Shown here piece after piece: positions 3,100-31,838 of a stretch of 44,311 nucleotides of DNA. Origin of the DNA: a virus. The translations under genes were made by a program, and so were the position numbers. The notes beneath the pieces are model-generated. The model saw only the letters and a program-made list of their open reading frames with translations, ran no database searches and was not told where the DNA came from. Position 1 is the first letter of the stretch; every line of letters begins with the position of its first letter. The stretch lies in the IMG/VR virus record IMGVR_UViG_3300032116_000407, positions 1 through 44,311 of that record. One strand, 5' to 3'.

Positions 3100-5043
3100 T
3101 TGCGCAAAGACCCCCTTGCGGCGGCCGTAGAGTCCGCCGTGAGCGGTGAACCTGCGTCGCCGTCGTGGTACGCCTTCCCCGGCGATCCGATCCGGTCGGA
3201 CTTCCGGAACTACCTGTACCTGGTGTGGGAGCACCTCGGGCTCCCTGACCCAACGAACGCCCAGTACGAGATGGCGTACTTCCTGCAACACGGCTACTTC
3301 GGATTCATCGAACTGCCAAGCGGGAGGATCGTCAAGCGGTACGACGAAGAGTGGGACGATGTGTCGGCCGAAGAGCAGGCGCAGGGCCGGCCTTTGGATG
3401 AGCCGCGGGAGACCTACCGCTCGGACATCCTTGAGGGATTCCGCGGGATCGGCAAGTCGTACATCTCCGCGGCCTTCTGTACCTGGCTCTTCCTGCGGGA
3501 CCCGATCAACGAGAAGATTCTGATCGTCTCGGCGTCGGGACCGAAGGCCAAGGAGTTCGTGGCTCAGGCCAAGTCCCTCATCATGACGATGGACATCCTG
3601 GCCCACCTGAGACCAGGGGCGCCGGGGTGGACCTCCACCTCCCGCGACCAGATCGACCGATTCGACGTGGCCGGCCACTCGATCTCCCAGAGCCCAAGCC
3701 TGAAGGCCGCCGGCATCACGGGCCAGATCACCGGCTCCCGCGCGACTCGCATCTTCCCGGACGACATTGAGATTCCGGACAACTCCAAGACCGAGGAGGC
3801 GCGTGAGTCTCTACTGCGCCTGGTCAACGAGTTCGACGCGATCATCTTGCCAGGGTCCGGGACCCAGATCACCTTCCTAGGGACGCCTCAGACCGAGGAG
3901 TCGATCTACAACCGCCTGATCCGGGAGCGGGGCTTCAACGCCTTCGTGTGGCCGGCGCGGTATCCGAAGATCGACAAGCGGCCGACGTACATCCACACGC
4001 GGGACAGCGGGGATCGTCACGACACCCTCGCGCCGGCCCTACGCGCACTGGACGCCCACCCTGAGTTGTCCATGCGGCCCACCGATCCGATGCGCTTCGG
4101 GGAGGTCCAACTGGCCGCCCGTGAGGCCAAGGGTCGCTCGTGGTTCGCCCTTCAGTACATGCTCGACACGACGCTGTCGGACGCGGAGCGCTACCCGCTC
4201 AAGCAGTTCGACCTCATCGTCATGAGCACGAACTTCATGAAGGCGCCGCTCACCGTTCAGTGGGGCAAGGACTCGGACAAGAAGAACGTCCGCAGCGACA
4301 TCCCTAACGTCGGCTTCAGTGGCGACTACCTGATCGGCCCTCTGTTCGTCGATAAGGAGTGGCGGGAGTACACCGCAAAGACGCTCTTCGTGGACCCTTC
4401 GGGCCGCGGTAAGGACGAGACTGCGTGGGCCGTCGTGGCAGAGCTTCACGGCATGCTGTACGTCCTGAAGGTCGGCGGCCACGCCGGGGACGTGAACACG
4501 GCGATGGAGAAGATCGCTATGGACGCCAAGGCGTACAACGTCAGCAACATTCTGGTCGAGCCCAACTACGGTGGGGTGATCTGGATCAGCGCATTCTCCC
4601 CCGTCCTCGCAAGGGTGGGTAAGGGATGGTCCTGTGCGGTCGATGAGGCCGAGTGGTCCCAGACCCAGAAGGAGGTCCGGATCATCGACACGCTTGAGCC
4701 TGTCATGAATCAGCACCGTCTTGTGGTGGACGAGTCAGTGGCGAAGGATCAGACCTTCATCTACCAACTCACCCACGTCTCCCGCGAGAAGGGCAGCCTG
4801 ACGCACGACGATAGGCTCGACGCAGTGGCCGGCGCAGTGGCAAGCCTGGCGGCCAGCTTGATGATCGACTCCGCGCAATCCCGCAAGGAGAAGCTGGACG
4901 AAGAACTGGACGCGCAACTGGAAGACTTCATCGAGACGTGCCGAATAGCCGGCACTGCGGGAGTCCGTACCGGCCGCGTTCTGAACAACCAAGTTCTCGG
5001 AGGCGAGGACGAGGGACACTACTTTTCAACGAGGTACTCATGA
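3100..5043 (+). CDS. terL: Terminase large subunit (T7 gp19-like)
   Basis: A 647-aa ATPase-nuclease that drives DNA packaging and cuts concatemers. The start is TTG, three bases after the small subunit. Walker A is GFRGIGKS near residue 113; the acidic IFPDDIE near residue 218 fits the Walker B position. The C-terminal nuclease shows LFVDPSGRGKDE near residue 429, carrying the first catalytic Asp, and THDDRLDAVAGA near residue 568, carrying late acidic residues. It is somewhat longer than T7 gp19 (586 aa). Its stop overlaps the next ATG (ATGA). Confidence 0.95.
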   Translation: MRKDPLAAAVESAVSGEPASPSWYAFPGDPIRSDFRNYLYLVWEHLGLPDPTNAQYEMAYFLQHGYFGFIELPSGRIVKRYDEEWDDVSAEEQAQGRPLDEPRETYRSDILEGFRGIGKSYISAAFCTWLFLRDPINEKILIVSASGPKAKEFVAQAKSLIMTMDILAHLRPGAPGWTSTSRDQIDRFDVAGHSISQSPSLKAAGITGQITGSRATRIFPDDIEIPDNSKTEEARESLLRLVNEFDAIILPGSGTQITFLGTPQTEESIYNRLIRERGFNAFVWPARYPKIDKRPTYIHTRDSGDRHDTLAPALRALDAHPELSMRPTDPMRFGEVQLAAREAKGRSWFALQYMLDTTLSDAERYPLKQFDLIVMSTNFMKAPLTVQWGKDSDKKNVRSDIPNVGFSGDYLIGPLFVDKEWREYTAKTLFVDPSGRGKDETAWAVVAELHGMLYVLKVGGHAGDVNTAMEKIAMDAKAYNVSNILVEPNYGGVIWISAFSPVLARVGKGWSCAVDEAEWSQTQKEVRIIDTLEPVMNQHRLVVDESVAKDQTFIYQLTHVSREKGSLTHDDRLDAVAGAVASLAASLMIDSAQSRKEKLDEELDAQLEDFIETCRIAGTAGVRTGRVLNNQVLGGEDEGHYFSTRYS

Positions 5044-5705: not shown

Positions 5706-5905
5706 ACGAGGGGCCGAGGGCGTGCGCCAGGGTGGCCGAGGTGGCACACCGGGGCGGCACACTAGGCGGACGAGGGGCGCAACCCTTTGATTGTCTAGGG
5801 GTTCGGCCGAGGGGCGCACGGATTGACTATCCGACCTGCCAGGACGAGGGGCCGAGGGTGTGCGCCAGGATGGCGGACGAGGGGCCGAGGGTGTGCGCCA
5901 GGATG
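5706..5905 (+). repeat. GC-rich tandem and dispersed repeats
   Basis: Two identical 30-bp units occupy 5843-5872 and 5876-5905 (33-bp period, core ACGAGGGGCCGAGGGTGTGC). A third, near-identical copy is at 5706-5734, and shorter fragments with GAGGGGCGCA lie near 5771 and 5814. Short repeat arrays near genome ends are known in T7, where they flank the terminal repeat. Confidence 0.8.
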
Positions 5906-6202
5906 TGGTGCGCGCACCTTCGTGCGCCCCTGTTTTTTGCCTTTGTCGGATGGCTTTACACTGCCAAGTACAGTAACTCATTGATTCGTAACACTATCAC
6001 GACCTGAGCCCTGAATGTGTAAGGTTTGCCGACAGGCCCACATTACGCGCAACCCATTGATTTACATAGAGTTCACCTTTGCGCCCTGTCGGATAGTTTT
6101 ACACTGCCAGGAAGGGCGCTCGGACTGTGCCAGAGTGGGCGAAGGGGCGCGCACTGGGCTAACTCATTGTTTCGCCTAGGGTTTCGTCTGTACAGTGACA
6201 TT

Positions 6203-8372: not shown

Positions 8373-8897
8373 ATGGAACGCCACGACACGATAACGGTAA
8401 ATGGTCTGGACTTCGCGGTCTATCTCGAACAGGACACGGACGCGGGTACGGGCGCACCTTGGGACAACGAAGACGGCCACGGACCAGTTCGCGAAGGATC
8501 GCGCCACGCGTACGGCGTGACGGACAAACGCCCTGGTGAACGCCCTTTGAATCAGGCCGGACGGCGCGATACCCAGTTCTTCTATGACTGGCAGGAAGCT
8601 ATGCGGATTGCCAAGCGTGACGGATGGGATGCGCCACCCTACAAGACTGGCACGAAGGGCGAGCAAGCGGCACGCGCTGTCCTCGCGGACTTCAATCACC
8701 TTCGCGGATTCGTTAACGGCGACTGGGTGTATGTCGGCGTGCGGGTTGTCCGCCTTGACGGGGACGGCGAAGAGACGGACGAATCGGATTCTCTCTGGGG
8801 AGTCGAGTCCGGCGGAGATTACTGGCGCGAGGTTGCCGAGGAACTGGCGGACGGTATCGCACAGACCTACTGGGCCGCACAAGGGGAAGCGGCATGA
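8373..8897 (+). CDS. Conserved phage protein with ENEDGHGP-like motif, unknown
   Basis: A 174-aa protein. It contains APWDNEDGHGPVRE near residue 28, KRPGERPL near residue 52, an aromatic helix (FYDWQEAMRIAKRDGW) and a C-terminal helix with YWREVAEELADGIA. The order of these motifs matches conserved hypothetical proteins I recall from phages of Pseudomonas and Burkholderia. No catalytic motif is evident. It is coupled to the next gene by ATGA. Confidence 0.6.
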   Translation: MERHDTITVNGLDFAVYLEQDTDAGTGAPWDNEDGHGPVREGSRHAYGVTDKRPGERPLNQAGRRDTQFFYDWQEAMRIAKRDGWDAPPYKTGTKGEQAARAVLADFNHLRGFVNGDWVYVGVRVVRLDGDGEETDESDSLWGVESGGDYWREVAEELADGIAQTYWAAQGEAA

Positions 8898-9719: not shown

Positions 9720-9771
9720 GCACCGAAACGCCCACTCCTCGCAAAACTCGTGGTCCTTACAAATCAAGGAC

Positions 9772-9796
9772 TTAGGAAAATGTTCCGCTATAACAA
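9772..9796 (+). promoter_or_regulatory. Candidate phage RNA polymerase promoter 1
   Basis: This 25-bp element is identical to one at 26886-26910 except for one base, and related to 18106-18130; the shared core is GAAAATGTTCCSCTATAA. CTATA sits where T7 promoters have it, directly before the start point, and the length (about 17 bp upstream plus start) fits a T7-type promoter. It stands at the head of the lysogeny module. Confidence 0.55.
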
Positions 9797-18081: not shown

Positions 18082-18100
18082 AATACAGTGACAACGTAAC
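18081..18100 (+). promoter_or_regulatory. CAGTGACAACGTAAC element after the polymerase gene
   Basis: A full copy of the repeated element, overlapping the last base of the polymerase stop codon and 6 bases before a promoter-like element. The two elements therefore occur together here. Confidence 0.5.
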
Positions 18101-18105
18101 TAGCG

Positions 18106-18130
18106 GGGAGAAAACATTCCCCTAATACAA
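18106..18130 (+). promoter_or_regulatory. Candidate phage RNA polymerase promoter 2
   Basis: GAAAACATTCCCCTAATA is a variant of the element at 9772 and 26886 (shared GRAAAAYRTTCCSCTA then ACAA). It heads the replication gene block. A 5-bp hairpin CCGCC/GGCGG with loop ACTTC follows within the leader. This copy has no ATG, which favours the promoter reading over a shared coding start. Confidence 0.45.
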
Positions 18131-26843: not shown

Positions 26844-26885
26844 GCAACTTGAAGGGCCTGGTAAAAGATCAACCAAATCAATAGG

Positions 26886-26910
26886 TTAGGAAAATGTTCC
26901 CCTATAACAA
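26886..26910 (+). promoter_or_regulatory. Candidate phage RNA polymerase promoter 3
   Basis: Identical to the 9772 element at 24 of 25 positions (core GAAAATGTTCCCCTATAA). It lies directly ahead of the morphogenesis genes. The ATG inside it (26894) coincides with the apparent start of the next gene, so either the gene start overlaps the promoter or the real start is downstream. Confidence 0.55.
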
Positions 26911-27745: not shown

Positions 27746-29268
27746 TGGCTACCGCGCTCAAGACTCAGTACGAGGCGGAGTTTCCGAAGCGCGAACCGTT
27801 CCTCCGCAGGGCCAGGCAGTACGCGGAACTCACCGTTCCGTCGCTGCTTCCACCTATGGGGCACAACTTCACCTCGGACCTTCCTGAGCCCTACAACGAG
27901 TTCGGCGGAGACGCCGTACCGTATCTGGCCTCGAAATTCCTGCTCGCGCTCCTTCCGCCTAATGAACTGGCGGCCAGGCTCGAAGTGAGCAACGAAGTCT
28001 TGCTGGCTTCCGGCAAGACCGAGACCCCTCCCGACGTGGAGAGCGGTCTCGCAAAATCTGAACTCCTGATTCGCAAGGAGGTCGAGCGCCTTCACTGGCG
28101 CGAGGCGACCTACCTCACGATTCAACTCCTGCTCGTCACCGGCTCCGCTTGCGAGGTCATGACGCCTGACGCCCTCATCAAGGTATTCAGGCTCGACCAG
28201 TTCGTAACCGTCCGCGACGCGGTGGGTAAGATGGTCAAGACCATCACGCTCGAAGAGATGCACCCTTCGACCGTCCCTGAAGAACTCCAGTGGATGATCG
28301 ATCCGGCCGTAGCCAAGGACCCGAACGGGACCGTCGAGCTTTACACCGGATGGTTCCGCCAACCGGACGGGCGCTACAAGACCTACCAGGAACTCAACGG
28401 CAAGCGCGTCCCCAAGTCGCTCGGCTACTACGATGAGGACACCCTCAACGTGTGGTGTCCGCGGTGGGCCGCCGTCCCGAAGGAGAACTACGGCCGCTCG
28501 AAGATCGAGGAGCACATCGGCGCCTTCCGCACCCTTGAGAACGCCTCAAGGTCGGTCGTAGAGGGCATCGCTATGGCGTCCCGGCACATCACTCTGGTGA
28601 GCCCGAACGCCGCTGGCGGAAACCTTCGCGCCCGCATCGCCAAGGCGAACAACGGGGCCGTGCTCTCCGGACGCGAAGAAGACGTGAAGATGTTGAAGTT
28701 CGAGAACATCAACGGCGTCGAGCTTGCGGATCAAACCGTCGTGCGAGTCACGCAGAAGTTGGCCGCCGCGTTCCTCAAATCAGGAGACATGCGCCGGGAT
28801 GCGGAGCGTGTCACCGCAGAGGAAATTCGCATGCTGGCCCAAGAGATCGAATCCGGTCTCGGCGGCGCCTACACGCTGCTCGCCTCTAACCTCATGGCAC
28901 CCCGCTTCAACCGCCTCATCTACCTGATGAAGAAGTCGAAGCGTCTCCCTGACTGGCCGAAGAAGACCATCAACGTCACCCTCACCACCGGCATCGCCGC
29001 TCTGGGTCGGGCGGCCGACGCGCAGAAGTACGCTGAAGCGCTCGGCGTGGTGGTCAAGCTCCCGGAGCAGTATCAGGCGCGGGTCAAGGACGGCGACCTC
29101 CTCAAAGGATGGTTCACCGCTCGTGGGCTCCCGGCAATGGTCAAGACCGACGCCGAGATGCAACAAGAGATGCAGCAGCGCATGGCGATGGAGGCCGCCC
29201 AAGCAGGGGCGACCGCTGGCGCCGAGGCCGTAGGCACTTCCGCGGCCCAACCCCAACCTACTGAGTAA
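27745..29268 (+). CDS. Portal (head-tail connector, T7 gp8-like)
   Basis: A 507-aa portal subunit, forming the dodecameric vertex for DNA entry and tail attachment. The start has the typical FPKREPFLRRARQYAELTVPS, followed by LLPPNELAARLEV and a stem/wing region (NYGRSKIEEHIGAFRTLENAS, then ERVTAEEIRMLAQEIE, a conserved T7-portal stretch). The C-terminus is Gln/Ala/Met-rich. Length is close to T7 gp8 (536 aa). The TAATG start and stop overlaps link it to the small upstream gene and the scaffold gene. Confidence 0.95.
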   Translation: MATALKTQYEAEFPKREPFLRRARQYAELTVPSLLPPMGHNFTSDLPEPYNEFGGDAVPYLASKFLLALLPPNELAARLEVSNEVLLASGKTETPPDVESGLAKSELLIRKEVERLHWREATYLTIQLLLVTGSACEVMTPDALIKVFRLDQFVTVRDAVGKMVKTITLEEMHPSTVPEELQWMIDPAVAKDPNGTVELYTGWFRQPDGRYKTYQELNGKRVPKSLGYYDEDTLNVWCPRWAAVPKENYGRSKIEEHIGAFRTLENASRSVVEGIAMASRHITLVSPNAAGGNLRARIAKANNGAVLSGREEDVKMLKFENINGVELADQTVVRVTQKLAAAFLKSGDMRRDAERVTAEEIRMLAQEIESGLGGAYTLLASNLMAPRFNRLIYLMKKSKRLPDWPKKTINVTLTTGIAALGRAADAQKYAEALGVVVKLPEQYQARVKDGDLLKGWFTARGLPAMVKTDAEMQQEMQQRMAMEAAQAGATAGAEAVGTSAAQPQPTE

Positions 29269-30086
29269 TGCCAGACCAAACCCAAACGCAAGACACCAAG
29301 CAGTCGCCCGCCCCCGGTTCCGACGAATATAAGGCCCAAATGGCGGCCCTGTACGACAACCAGGGTGGCACCAAGGACACCTCCGCGCAGGCCCAAGACT
29401 TCAAGCCCCAACGCCCCGAGTGGGTGGAGGAGCAGTTCTGGGACGCGGAGAAGGGGCAAGTCAACACCGAGGCGCTCGCTAAGAGCTACAAGGAGTTGCG
29501 CACCAAGATGTCCTCAGGCGGCGCCAAAGAGGGCGGCCAGCAGGCGGCCCAGAGCGGGGACGGAAAGCCCCAATCCGGGGCCGAACAAGCCGTCGCCGCA
29601 GCGGGTCTCGACTTCAACCAACTAGGTACGAAGATCAGTTCCGCAGGGGACATCGAAGAGACCGACTATGCGGCCCTCGAAAAGGTCGGCATCCCGCGCG
29701 GCGAAGTGCAGAACTACGTCCGGCTCATCAAGGCCGAGGCGGAGCGCGTGAAGCAGGACGCCTACAAGGAAGTGGGCGGCCAGCAAAACTTCGACGCCAT
29801 CATGGCGAAGGCGAAGGCCGAACTCTCGCCCGACGAGAAGACAGCCCTGAACACCCTCCTCGCGGGTGAAGGCACGAGGAAGGCCGCGTTGCAGACACTC
29901 AAGCAGCGCTTCATGCCGGACGATGGTGAGCCTCAAGGCCAACTTGACGGCGGCTCTCCGGCCGGCGGAGCGGGCGGCTATCCGTCCCTCGCGCAGCAGA
30001 CCGCAGCGATCAACGATCCGCGGTACAAAACAGACCCGGCTTACCGGGCGCAAGTGCGTCAACGAATCGCCCTCTCCCGGTTCTAA
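29268..30086 (+). CDS. Capsid assembly scaffold (T7 gp9-like)
   Basis: A 272-aa acidic, Gln/Ala/Gly-rich protein that guides procapsid assembly and is absent from mature virions. Motifs include RPEWVEEQFWD near residue 48, AKSYKELR, and the C-terminal DPRYKTDPAYRAQVRQRI, which resembles the T7 gp9 end that binds the capsid shell. Its one-base overlap with the portal gene and its size fit the family. It is followed by an unusually long non-coding region before the capsid gene. Confidence 0.92.
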   Translation: MPDQTQTQDTKQSPAPGSDEYKAQMAALYDNQGGTKDTSAQAQDFKPQRPEWVEEQFWDAEKGQVNTEALAKSYKELRTKMSSGGAKEGGQQAAQSGDGKPQSGAEQAVAAAGLDFNQLGTKISSAGDIEETDYAALEKVGIPRGEVQNYVRLIKAEAERVKQDAYKEVGGQQNFDAIMAKAKAELSPDEKTALNTLLAGEGTRKAALQTLKQRFMPDDGEPQGQLDGGSPAGGAGGYPSLAQQTAAINDPRYKTDPAYRAQVRQRIALSRF

Positions 30087-30793
30087 GCCGCGGACACCTC
30101 AGAAGGGTGTCCCAGTGCGCACCCCAGTGCTCATCTCCCGATCCTAGCGCGTCTCATCAACGGCAGGGGATCAATGAGGACACCTCAGGTGATTCCTGAG
30201 GCTCGTTACTGCTCCATCCCGGCATGGCCGGAGCCAGGCGCGTATCGACGGGCGGCAAGAGACGCCCCACTGGGACACCCTTCTGAACAATGGGCCGTAT
30301 CGTCTAACTCTAAAGAACGCCGACTATCGGCAGTGATGAAGGTGAGAATCCTTCTGCGGCTCCCAGTATTCGCTGGATCATCTAAGCAAGACCCGTCGTG
30401 AATAACGGACGGGAATCCGGGACGATCCCGGTCCGGCGTCCTGGCGTGTGCCGGTAGGGGCCTCGTACCTACCAACATTCTTTACCGCAGGGGTCCTCCC
30501 TGCGCCCACGTTACGCCGTCCTGGCGTCAACGCATATCTCCCCTTTGCAGTTCCGCGTGTTGCCCGCTACGGCCGCACGCAATAGGCGTCACACGACGAA
30601 AGCGACGTAGCGGTTGCTTCGGTCGTTTGATCCCTAGACCACGCAGGTAGCTCTTGGCCCGTTCTCGGACGGACAACCCTGAGCGAGCGCTCAAGTCGAA
30701 GCCCTCCGTGGCGCACCCGCGCAAGCCTTCCCCGGCGAGCCGTGCGCTGTCTCTACCTGTTTTGCCTCCTGCAACGGGAGGTATGGAAATCAA
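30087..30793 (+). ncRNA. Large structured non-coding RNA candidate between scaffold and capsid genes
   Basis: No plausible gene is found in 707 bases of an otherwise packed genome. A perfect 19-bp inverted repeat (30099-30117 with 30268-30286) closes a multibranch domain holding hairpins 30183-30201 (CCTCAGG/CCTGAGG), 30211-30234 and 30250-30267. Downstream are perfect stems at 30319-30331, 30338-30354, 30363-30376, 30392-30413, 30417-30431, 30433-30454, 30453-30473, 30487-30503, 30513-30527 and 30564-30613. Three hairpins share the loop sequence GTCCT. GGTGTCC at 30106-30112 can alternatively pair with GGACACC at 30092-30098, giving two exclusive folds. It may be an independent large RNA or a long capsid-mRNA leader. 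Confidence 0.6.
30765..30781 (+). promoter_or_regulatory. Hairpin masking the capsid ribosome site
   Basis: CCTCC (30765-30769) pairs with GGAGG (30777-30781), the Shine-Dalgarno of the capsid gene, 12 bases before its ATG. This could tune capsid translation or couple it to folding of the upstream RNA. Confidence 0.45.
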
Positions 30794-31780
30794 ATGGCAT
30801 TCTCAGCAGTCGCCTCGGCTCCGGCCAGGTTTGGTGACGGCCAAGGCGCACTCGATTCGCGGAACCTTTTCCTAAAGGTCTTCGGCGGTGAAGTCTTCGC
30901 GGCCTTCAGCGAAGCTGTCCTGACGCTCGACAAGCACAACATTCGCACCCTGAACTCGGGCAAGTCGGCCCAGTTCCCGAAGACCTGGAAAGCGATCTCC
31001 GAGTACCACCTCGCGGGTCAAGAGATGATCGGCAACGACATCGACACGACCGAAGTCACCATCACGGTGGACGGTCTGCTCGTGGCGCACGTCGGCATCT
31101 ACGACTTCGACGAACTGATGTCGCACTTCGAAGTCTCCTCGCAGTACAGCAAGGAACTCGGCCTGGCCCTCGCCAAGACCTTCGACAGGAACGTCTTCCG
31201 CACGATCATCCGCGCTGCGCGTACCGCCGCTGACGGTCCCTTCCCCGGCGGCAACGTCGTGACCGACGCTGCGCTCACCGCGACCGGCACCATCGACGGC
31301 AAGGCTTGGATCGATGCGATCCGCACCGCGAACATCGCCCTGTTCAACAAGGATGTCCCCGAGGACATGCCGCGTTACATGGCCGTGAACGCCAACGTGT
31401 TCGATGCGATCAAGTACGCGAAGGACGCGAACGGCCGGTATCTGGCGCTCCAGAAGGAACTCAATGTCACCGGCAACGGCGGCATCGACAAGCGCGTGCA
31501 GAGCCTTGAGATCGAGGGCGTGGAAATCTATCGCTCGCGTCTCCTGCCGAACACCAACGAGACTTCGGACACCACGGTGTACACGAAGTACCGCGCCAAC
31601 TACGCGACCACGACCGGCGTCCTCTGGACCCCGATGTCTGTCGGTACGGTGAAGCTCCGCGACATCACGATGGAATCCTTCCGCGACGTTCGTCGTCAGG
31701 AAGACTTCATGGTGGCCTCGATGGCTTCCGGTTCGGACCCGCTCCGTTCCGAGTGCGCAGTGGAGTTCAAGACCTCGTAA
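30794..31780 (+). CDS. Major capsid protein (T7 gp10-like)
   Basis: A 328-aa HK97-fold shell protein. The N-arm and first domain carry LFLKVFGGEVFAAFSEA and SGKSAQFPKTW, nearly the same as the T7 gp10 stretch LFLKVFGGEVLTAFART and SGKSAQFP; then TVDGLLVAHVGIYDFDELM. Length is close to gp10A (345 aa). The gene is preceded by the structured non-coding region and followed by the strongest terminator of the window, consistent with very high expression. There is no evident gp10B-type frameshift extension. Confidence 0.97.
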   Translation: MAFSAVASAPARFGDGQGALDSRNLFLKVFGGEVFAAFSEAVLTLDKHNIRTLNSGKSAQFPKTWKAISEYHLAGQEMIGNDIDTTEVTITVDGLLVAHVGIYDFDELMSHFEVSSQYSKELGLALAKTFDRNVFRTIIRAARTAADGPFPGGNVVTDAALTATGTIDGKAWIDAIRTANIALFNKDVPEDMPRYMAVNANVFDAIKYAKDANGRYLALQKELNVTGNGGIDKRVQSLEIEGVEIYRSRLLPNTNETSDTTVYTKYRANYATTTGVLWTPMSVGTVKLRDITMESFRDVRRQEDFMVASMASGSDPLRSECAVEFKTS

Positions 31781-31800: not shown

Positions 31801-31838
31801 AAGAGCCTGGCCGAGTCGTATCGGTCGGGCTCTTTTTT
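31801..31838 (+). terminator. Strong intrinsic terminator after the capsid gene
   Basis: AGAGCCTGGCCGA pairs with TCGGTCGGGCTCT over 13 bp, including two G-U wobbles, with loop GTCGTA, followed directly by six T. The place is equivalent to T7 Tphi, which also follows the capsid gene and partly terminates phage polymerase. Confidence 0.9.

Follow-up and report, generated by a model that had tools for sequence, protein, structure and literature searches.

The capsid mRNA usually ranks among a phage's most abundant messages. To our knowledge, its leader has rarely been studied outside T7. The described system closest to the locus reported here is that of LUZ100, an integrase-carrying T7-like phage with a mapped phage promoter (phi7) that lies about 560 nt ahead of the capsid start and gives a capsid leader of that length (PMC10134795). 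Two further kinds of RNA are relevant for comparison. GOLLD and ROOL are large, densely structured and phage-associated. The abiF RNA (RF03085) is the antitoxin RNA of AbiF, and AbiF of C. difficile is neutralised by such an RNA (PMC12373285).

The window analysed here is the whole stretch of 44,311 bases of record IMGVR_UViG_3300032116_000407, which ends in direct terminal repeats of 227 bases. The phage is T7-like (Autographiviridae-like), with a gene set of that type (RNA polymerase, primase-helicase, DNA polymerase, portal, scaffold, capsid and tail) and also an integrase. The features around the capsid gene are as follows.

26874 to 26910, + strand: probable phage RNA polymerase promoter, a 37-mer forming a near-identical pair with 9760-9796
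29268 to 30086, + strand: scaffold gene (phrog_1052 match, PHROG)
30087 to 30793, + strand: non-coding capsid leader, the gap between scaffold and major capsid genes; no coding signal, strongest folder of 31 segments, longest of 53 leaders
30794 to 31780, + strand: major capsid gene (phrog_267, major head, match, PHROG)
31801 to 31838, + strand: intrinsic-terminator-like hairpin and T run after the capsid gene, from reading of the sequence

Positions 30087-30793 occupy the scaffold-capsid gap, are non-coding and lie on the same strand as the capsid gene. They are read here, with moderate confidence, as an extended structured capsid leader, in which a conserved cis-acting hairpin is combined with a lineage-specific RNA domain upstream.

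The preliminary description of this region had listed 707 bases without a credible gene, and this is borne out. G+C content by codon position is flat in the gap (0.62/0.64/0.59), whereas the genes of this phage have 0.80-0.88 at position 3. None of the ORFs in the gap matched Pfam or PHROG at E≤1, and tblastn searches with two of them against 50,697 phage records gave no matches. A protein encoded in the gap is ruled out by the flat codon-position G+C together with the absent Pfam, PHROG and tblastn support. A conserved reading frame running through the region had been named in advance as one sign that would speak against an RNA; coding signal was sought there and was absent.

Related loci were collected by capsid searches of IMG/VR, which gave 45 and then 80 loci, overlapping in part. 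The nearest capsid proteins in IMG/VR are 60-70% identical. A closer phage was sought via portal, capsid and tail; the best matches were 60-70% for the capsid and 33-37% for the portal, with none for the tail. The genome collection held one capsid relative, which is distant. In every locus in which the scaffold gene adjoins the capsid gene the gap is at least 115 nt, and in some an ORF fills part of it. As judged from these sequence comparisons, the scaffold-capsid gap in the window follows the family plan of an untranslated leader. At 707 nt it is the longest among 53 non-redundant leaders (median 231 nt), a count that leaves out loci whose gaps hold other genes, and it illustrates how large and structured a capsid leader can become. 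Loci of the closest group (L067-L079) have a small ORF of about 126-165 aa between the capsid leader and the capsid gene, and in most of them the hairpin described below lies upstream of this ORF. A Group I intron (RF00028, 54.3 bits) was observed at L076:4391-4947, apparently within the capsid gene.

The leaders of the relatives share a hairpin, consisting of a C, a 4-bp stem, a YNMG-type loop, ANAAY and an outer helix. It precedes the capsid gene or operon, in most cases at a distance of 60-110 nt from the first codon. Of 62 non-redundant leaders, 55 contain the strict pattern, whereas the mean count in shuffles is 0.125. This pattern demands the inner pairs, so that inner pairing is no independent evidence; it leaves the outer helix unrequired, and the outer helix and the diversity of pair types therefore do count as independent evidence. 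Among 37 sequences, the window not included, double changes occur at 8/8 pairs, and the covariation score is 0.562, compared with 0.223 in shuffles and at most 0.128 with slid partners. The covariation analysis proposed in the preliminary description thus found compensatory changes throughout the relatives' hairpin, while domain I of the window (see below) has no detectable homologues to align.

A covariance model (R1) was built from the same 37 sequences. In whole-record searches its best match immediately precedes the capsid gene or operon in 13 of 15 IMG/VR records (the majority had contributed to the model), and likewise in HTVC105P, CRP-118, BB8 and jiawei, none of which was used for training. 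The match positions were verified against annotation. The motif is present by pattern in RHEph01 and P-SCSP1d, occurs in LUZ100 at most as an enlarged version recognised by eye, and was not found in S2B, YIMV22061, ctgrD200 and the T7-type phage JeanTinguely. No Rfam family matched it in the loci scanned, and no description of it was found in the open-access literature searched, a scope that excludes subscription papers and preprints. The motif-bearing phages have capsid proteins down to about 30% identity; a covarying hairpin that is unmatched in Rfam 15 and spans capsids so far apart is a directly testable candidate for a regulatory element.

The window carries a candidate copy of this hairpin.

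30647 to 30688, + strand: capsid-leader hairpin copy GGC-CCGUU-CUCG-GACGG-ACAACC (R1 11.4 bits; strict pattern; identity with BB8)

It comprises the C, a stem of 4-5 bp, a YNNG loop and ANAAY, and lies upstream of the capsid start (30794) on the same strand, with the flanks, the stem and the ACAACC strand in the expected order. In the R1 search of the window it was the third best match (11.4 bits, E 1.2), which is not significant for the whole record; by our own scaling to the last 220 nt of the + strand, E is about 0.003. The chance of finding the strict pattern in those 220 nt is 0.0005. The copy has CTTGGCCCG...CGGACAACCCTG in common with Bordetella phage BB8. It departs from the motif of the relatives in having a five-pair stem or a six-base loop, a weak score and a distance of 130 nt from the start codon. 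The R1 score is low because stem and loop differ. Position, strict pattern and BB8 identity make homology likely, and 30647-30688 is probably a diverged copy of the family-wide hairpin. Two R1 matches that outscore it, at 8734-8773 (- strand) and 4511-4550 (+ strand), are located in coding sequence and were taken as chance. At 30562-30573, GCCCGCTACGGC repeats 12 bases of the L001/L013 hairpin without its 3' half; it was rejected as a second copy of the motif for want of the ACAAY half, and is maybe a decayed one.

The + strand of 30087-30793 folds with a minimum free energy of -312.9 kcal/mol, compared with a shuffle mean of -267.5 kcal/mol (z -7.9); other shuffle sets gave z -5.1 to -5.9. 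The minus strand deviates less (z -3.0). Among 31 same-length segments of this genome the region ranks first in folding, with a gain over shuffles of -48.9 kcal/mol, compared with a mean of -11.0 (sd 10.1, best -32.3) for the 30 others. Windows of 200 nt inside the region are no outliers against the GC-rich genome background, and the excess is therefore due to long-range helices, above all 30099-30286. The earlier impression of complementarity far above chance accordingly stands for the region as a whole and not for its local windows. The perfect 19-bp inverted repeat with arms about 150 bases apart was found exactly as first described (30099-30117 / 30268-30286, arms 150 nt apart), and the longest perfect inverted repeat across 300 dinucleotide shuffles was 14 bp. 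The predicted architecture is as follows.

30087 to 30445, + strand: 5' domain I, closed by 30087-30098 / 30435-30445 and the 19-bp helix (P 0.92-0.99)
30099 to 30117, + strand: left arm of the perfect 19-bp helix, from the inverted-repeat search
30268 to 30286, + strand: right arm of the perfect 19-bp helix (pair probability 0.99)
30446 to 30532, + strand: linker with three hairpins, two with a GUCCU loop (30486-30504, 30509-30532); z -2.2
30533 to 30785, + strand: 3' domain III, closed by 30533-30550 / 30769-30785 (P 0.96-0.98; z -4.2)
30777 to 30782, + strand: capsid Shine-Dalgarno GGAGGT, predicted to pair with 30533-30542 (P 1.00)

These folds are energy-model predictions for one genome. 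The inner part of domain I (30099-30286) has z -7.0. Domain I alone has z -5.6 on the + strand, with 0/100 shuffles equally stable, and a close value of -4.9 on the minus strand. Many further stems of the leader have a predicted pairing probability >0.9, in agreement with the local stems noted before, and two of them have the GTCCT loop.

Inverted repeats can be DNA sites, and the phage encodes an integrase; the region might thus be an attachment site, a transposon remnant or a replication element and not act as RNA. Such a DNA-level feature is very improbable, given that the + strand outfolds the minus strand over the region (z -7.9 vs -3.0), although in domain I the difference is small, that the integrase is 18 kb off, that no target duplication was seen by eye, and that the covariation in related leaders is of the RNA type.

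The capsid Shine-Dalgarno sits in the 3' arm of the closing helix of domain III (30769-30785). Pairing at P≥0.99 was reached by 0.5% of shuffles, while the energy of the duplex alone is not unusual compared with them. Sequestration is also predicted in LUZ100 (0.99) and CRP-118 (0.98), but most relatives are without it, and as a family mechanism it was discarded as not general. The pairing is a weak clue, because the duplex energy is ordinary and most relatives lack it. From the modelled fold one may propose a translational switch, in which 30533-30542 would block the capsid ribosome-binding site until cleavage of the leader, protein binding or refolding sets it free. The far partner predicted at P 1.0, a probability so rarely approached by shuffles, and the like predictions in LUZ100 and CRP-118 favour such a switch; with a duplex no stronger than in shuffles and most relatives showing nothing of the kind, we consider it quite unlikely.

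The Rfam covariance-model search proposed at the outset was run and gave no match for the region at the gathering score or at E≤10, in keeping with the first impression that no known class is recognisable. Together with the coding and folding tests, the region is well described as a large, structured, non-coding RNA region. ARAGORN detected no tRNA or tmRNA in the leader, and abiF RNA (RF03085) was not detected by Rfam in the window. A rearranged abiF RNA suspected by eye at 30689-30730 was dropped because its closing helix is missing. Homologues of the 707 nt were found neither in phages, plasmids and 33 relative records, where hits were short and at chance level, nor in IMG/VR by exact 19-mer. 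Domain I is unmatched in all relatives' leaders compared, and is best read, on this comparison, as a lineage-specific extension of the leader.

The preliminary description had likened the region in style to GOLLD and ROOL, and in size, richness of structure and association with a phage it does resemble those large ornate RNAs, which form RNA-only complexes. Membership of that kind is nevertheless highly unlikely: the GOLLD and ROOL models of Rfam are unmatched even at E≤10, conserved homologues were not found, and the place of the region directly before the capsid gene is explained by the shared leader architecture.

Other RNAs do occupy the same gap in some relatives. ARAGORN found a tRNA in 4 of 112 gaps scanned, namely tRNA-Asn in L001, LUZ100 and RHEph01 and tRNA-Glu in L045. 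In two capsid leaders (L081:4609-4663 and L084:3377-3436) the scaffold-capsid gap contains an abiF RNA slightly above the gathering score, and both loci also have the capsid-leader hairpin. The capsid leader of LUZ100 (L119:2010-2085) contains an abiF-like AAGCCTCT...GCTCAAATCG, seen by eye and not called by cmscan. No Abi_2 gene was found in LUZ100 (complete genome) or in the L081 and L084 records (fragments). Orphan abiF RNAs at this place would point to phages using their capsid leaders as carriers of RNA that weakens the toxin defences of the host.

Domain I could correspondingly be an independent cargo RNA, an antitoxin or decoy against host defence or an RNA for host takeover, made in bulk through its place ahead of the capsid gene and freed by processing. 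It folds by itself (z -5.6), and the tRNAs and toxin-less abiF RNAs of relatives provide parallels; yet the window has no homologue, Rfam, tRNA or abiF match, and no terminator that would release domain I. This reading is on the unlikely side. A more general form takes the whole gap as a bay for trans-acting RNAs, exemplified by the tRNAs and by the abiF antitoxin RNAs without toxin, which would be produced in quantity along with the capsid message and split off at the conserved hairpin, domain I being an unknown cargo RNA, possibly an anti-defence one. We regard this broader proposal as unlikely.

The transcription signals bear on the preferred reading, that of an extended structured capsid leader. 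Probable phage RNA polymerase promoters are located at 9760-9796 and 26874-26910, with a weaker one at 18094-18130 (consensus TTAGGAAAATGTTCCSCTATAACAA). No promoter resembling the 37-mer was found within or just before the leader, which counts against the preferred reading, as do the weak score and the distance of the hairpin copy and the lack of Shine-Dalgarno sequestration as a family trait. The leader holds no + strand terminator that would cut the region off from the capsid gene. The window shares with LUZ100 the T7-like gene set with integrase, an untranslated capsid leader and a terminator-like hairpin after the capsid gene; it differs in its length of 707 nt, the lack of a recognised local promoter and of a tRNA, and its sequence. 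The absence of a terminator in the leader, the terminator-like hairpin after the capsid gene and the LUZ100 precedent make it most likely that leader and capsid gene are transcribed as one unit, perhaps through read-through starting at 26874. Of the two possibilities raised in the preliminary description, a long mRNA leader is favoured over an RNA with its own function in capsid assembly or packaging because of the leaders of the relatives, the conserved 3' motif, the missing terminator and the LUZ100 precedent; a role in packaging or capsid assembly found no support.

In the mechanism proposed for this leader, leader and capsid gene would be transcribed jointly on the + strand. The hairpin at 30647-30688 would most likely either define a 5' portion, stable or processed, of the strongly expressed capsid mRNA or be a protein-binding site that tunes capsid translation. 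By prediction, the enclosing domain III also sequesters the capsid Shine-Dalgarno. Domain I would probably serve as a cargo RNA like those in the gaps of relatives or as a 5' protective structure. Elsewhere in the window, a 39-base repeat is present in four imperfect copies at 5706-6147.
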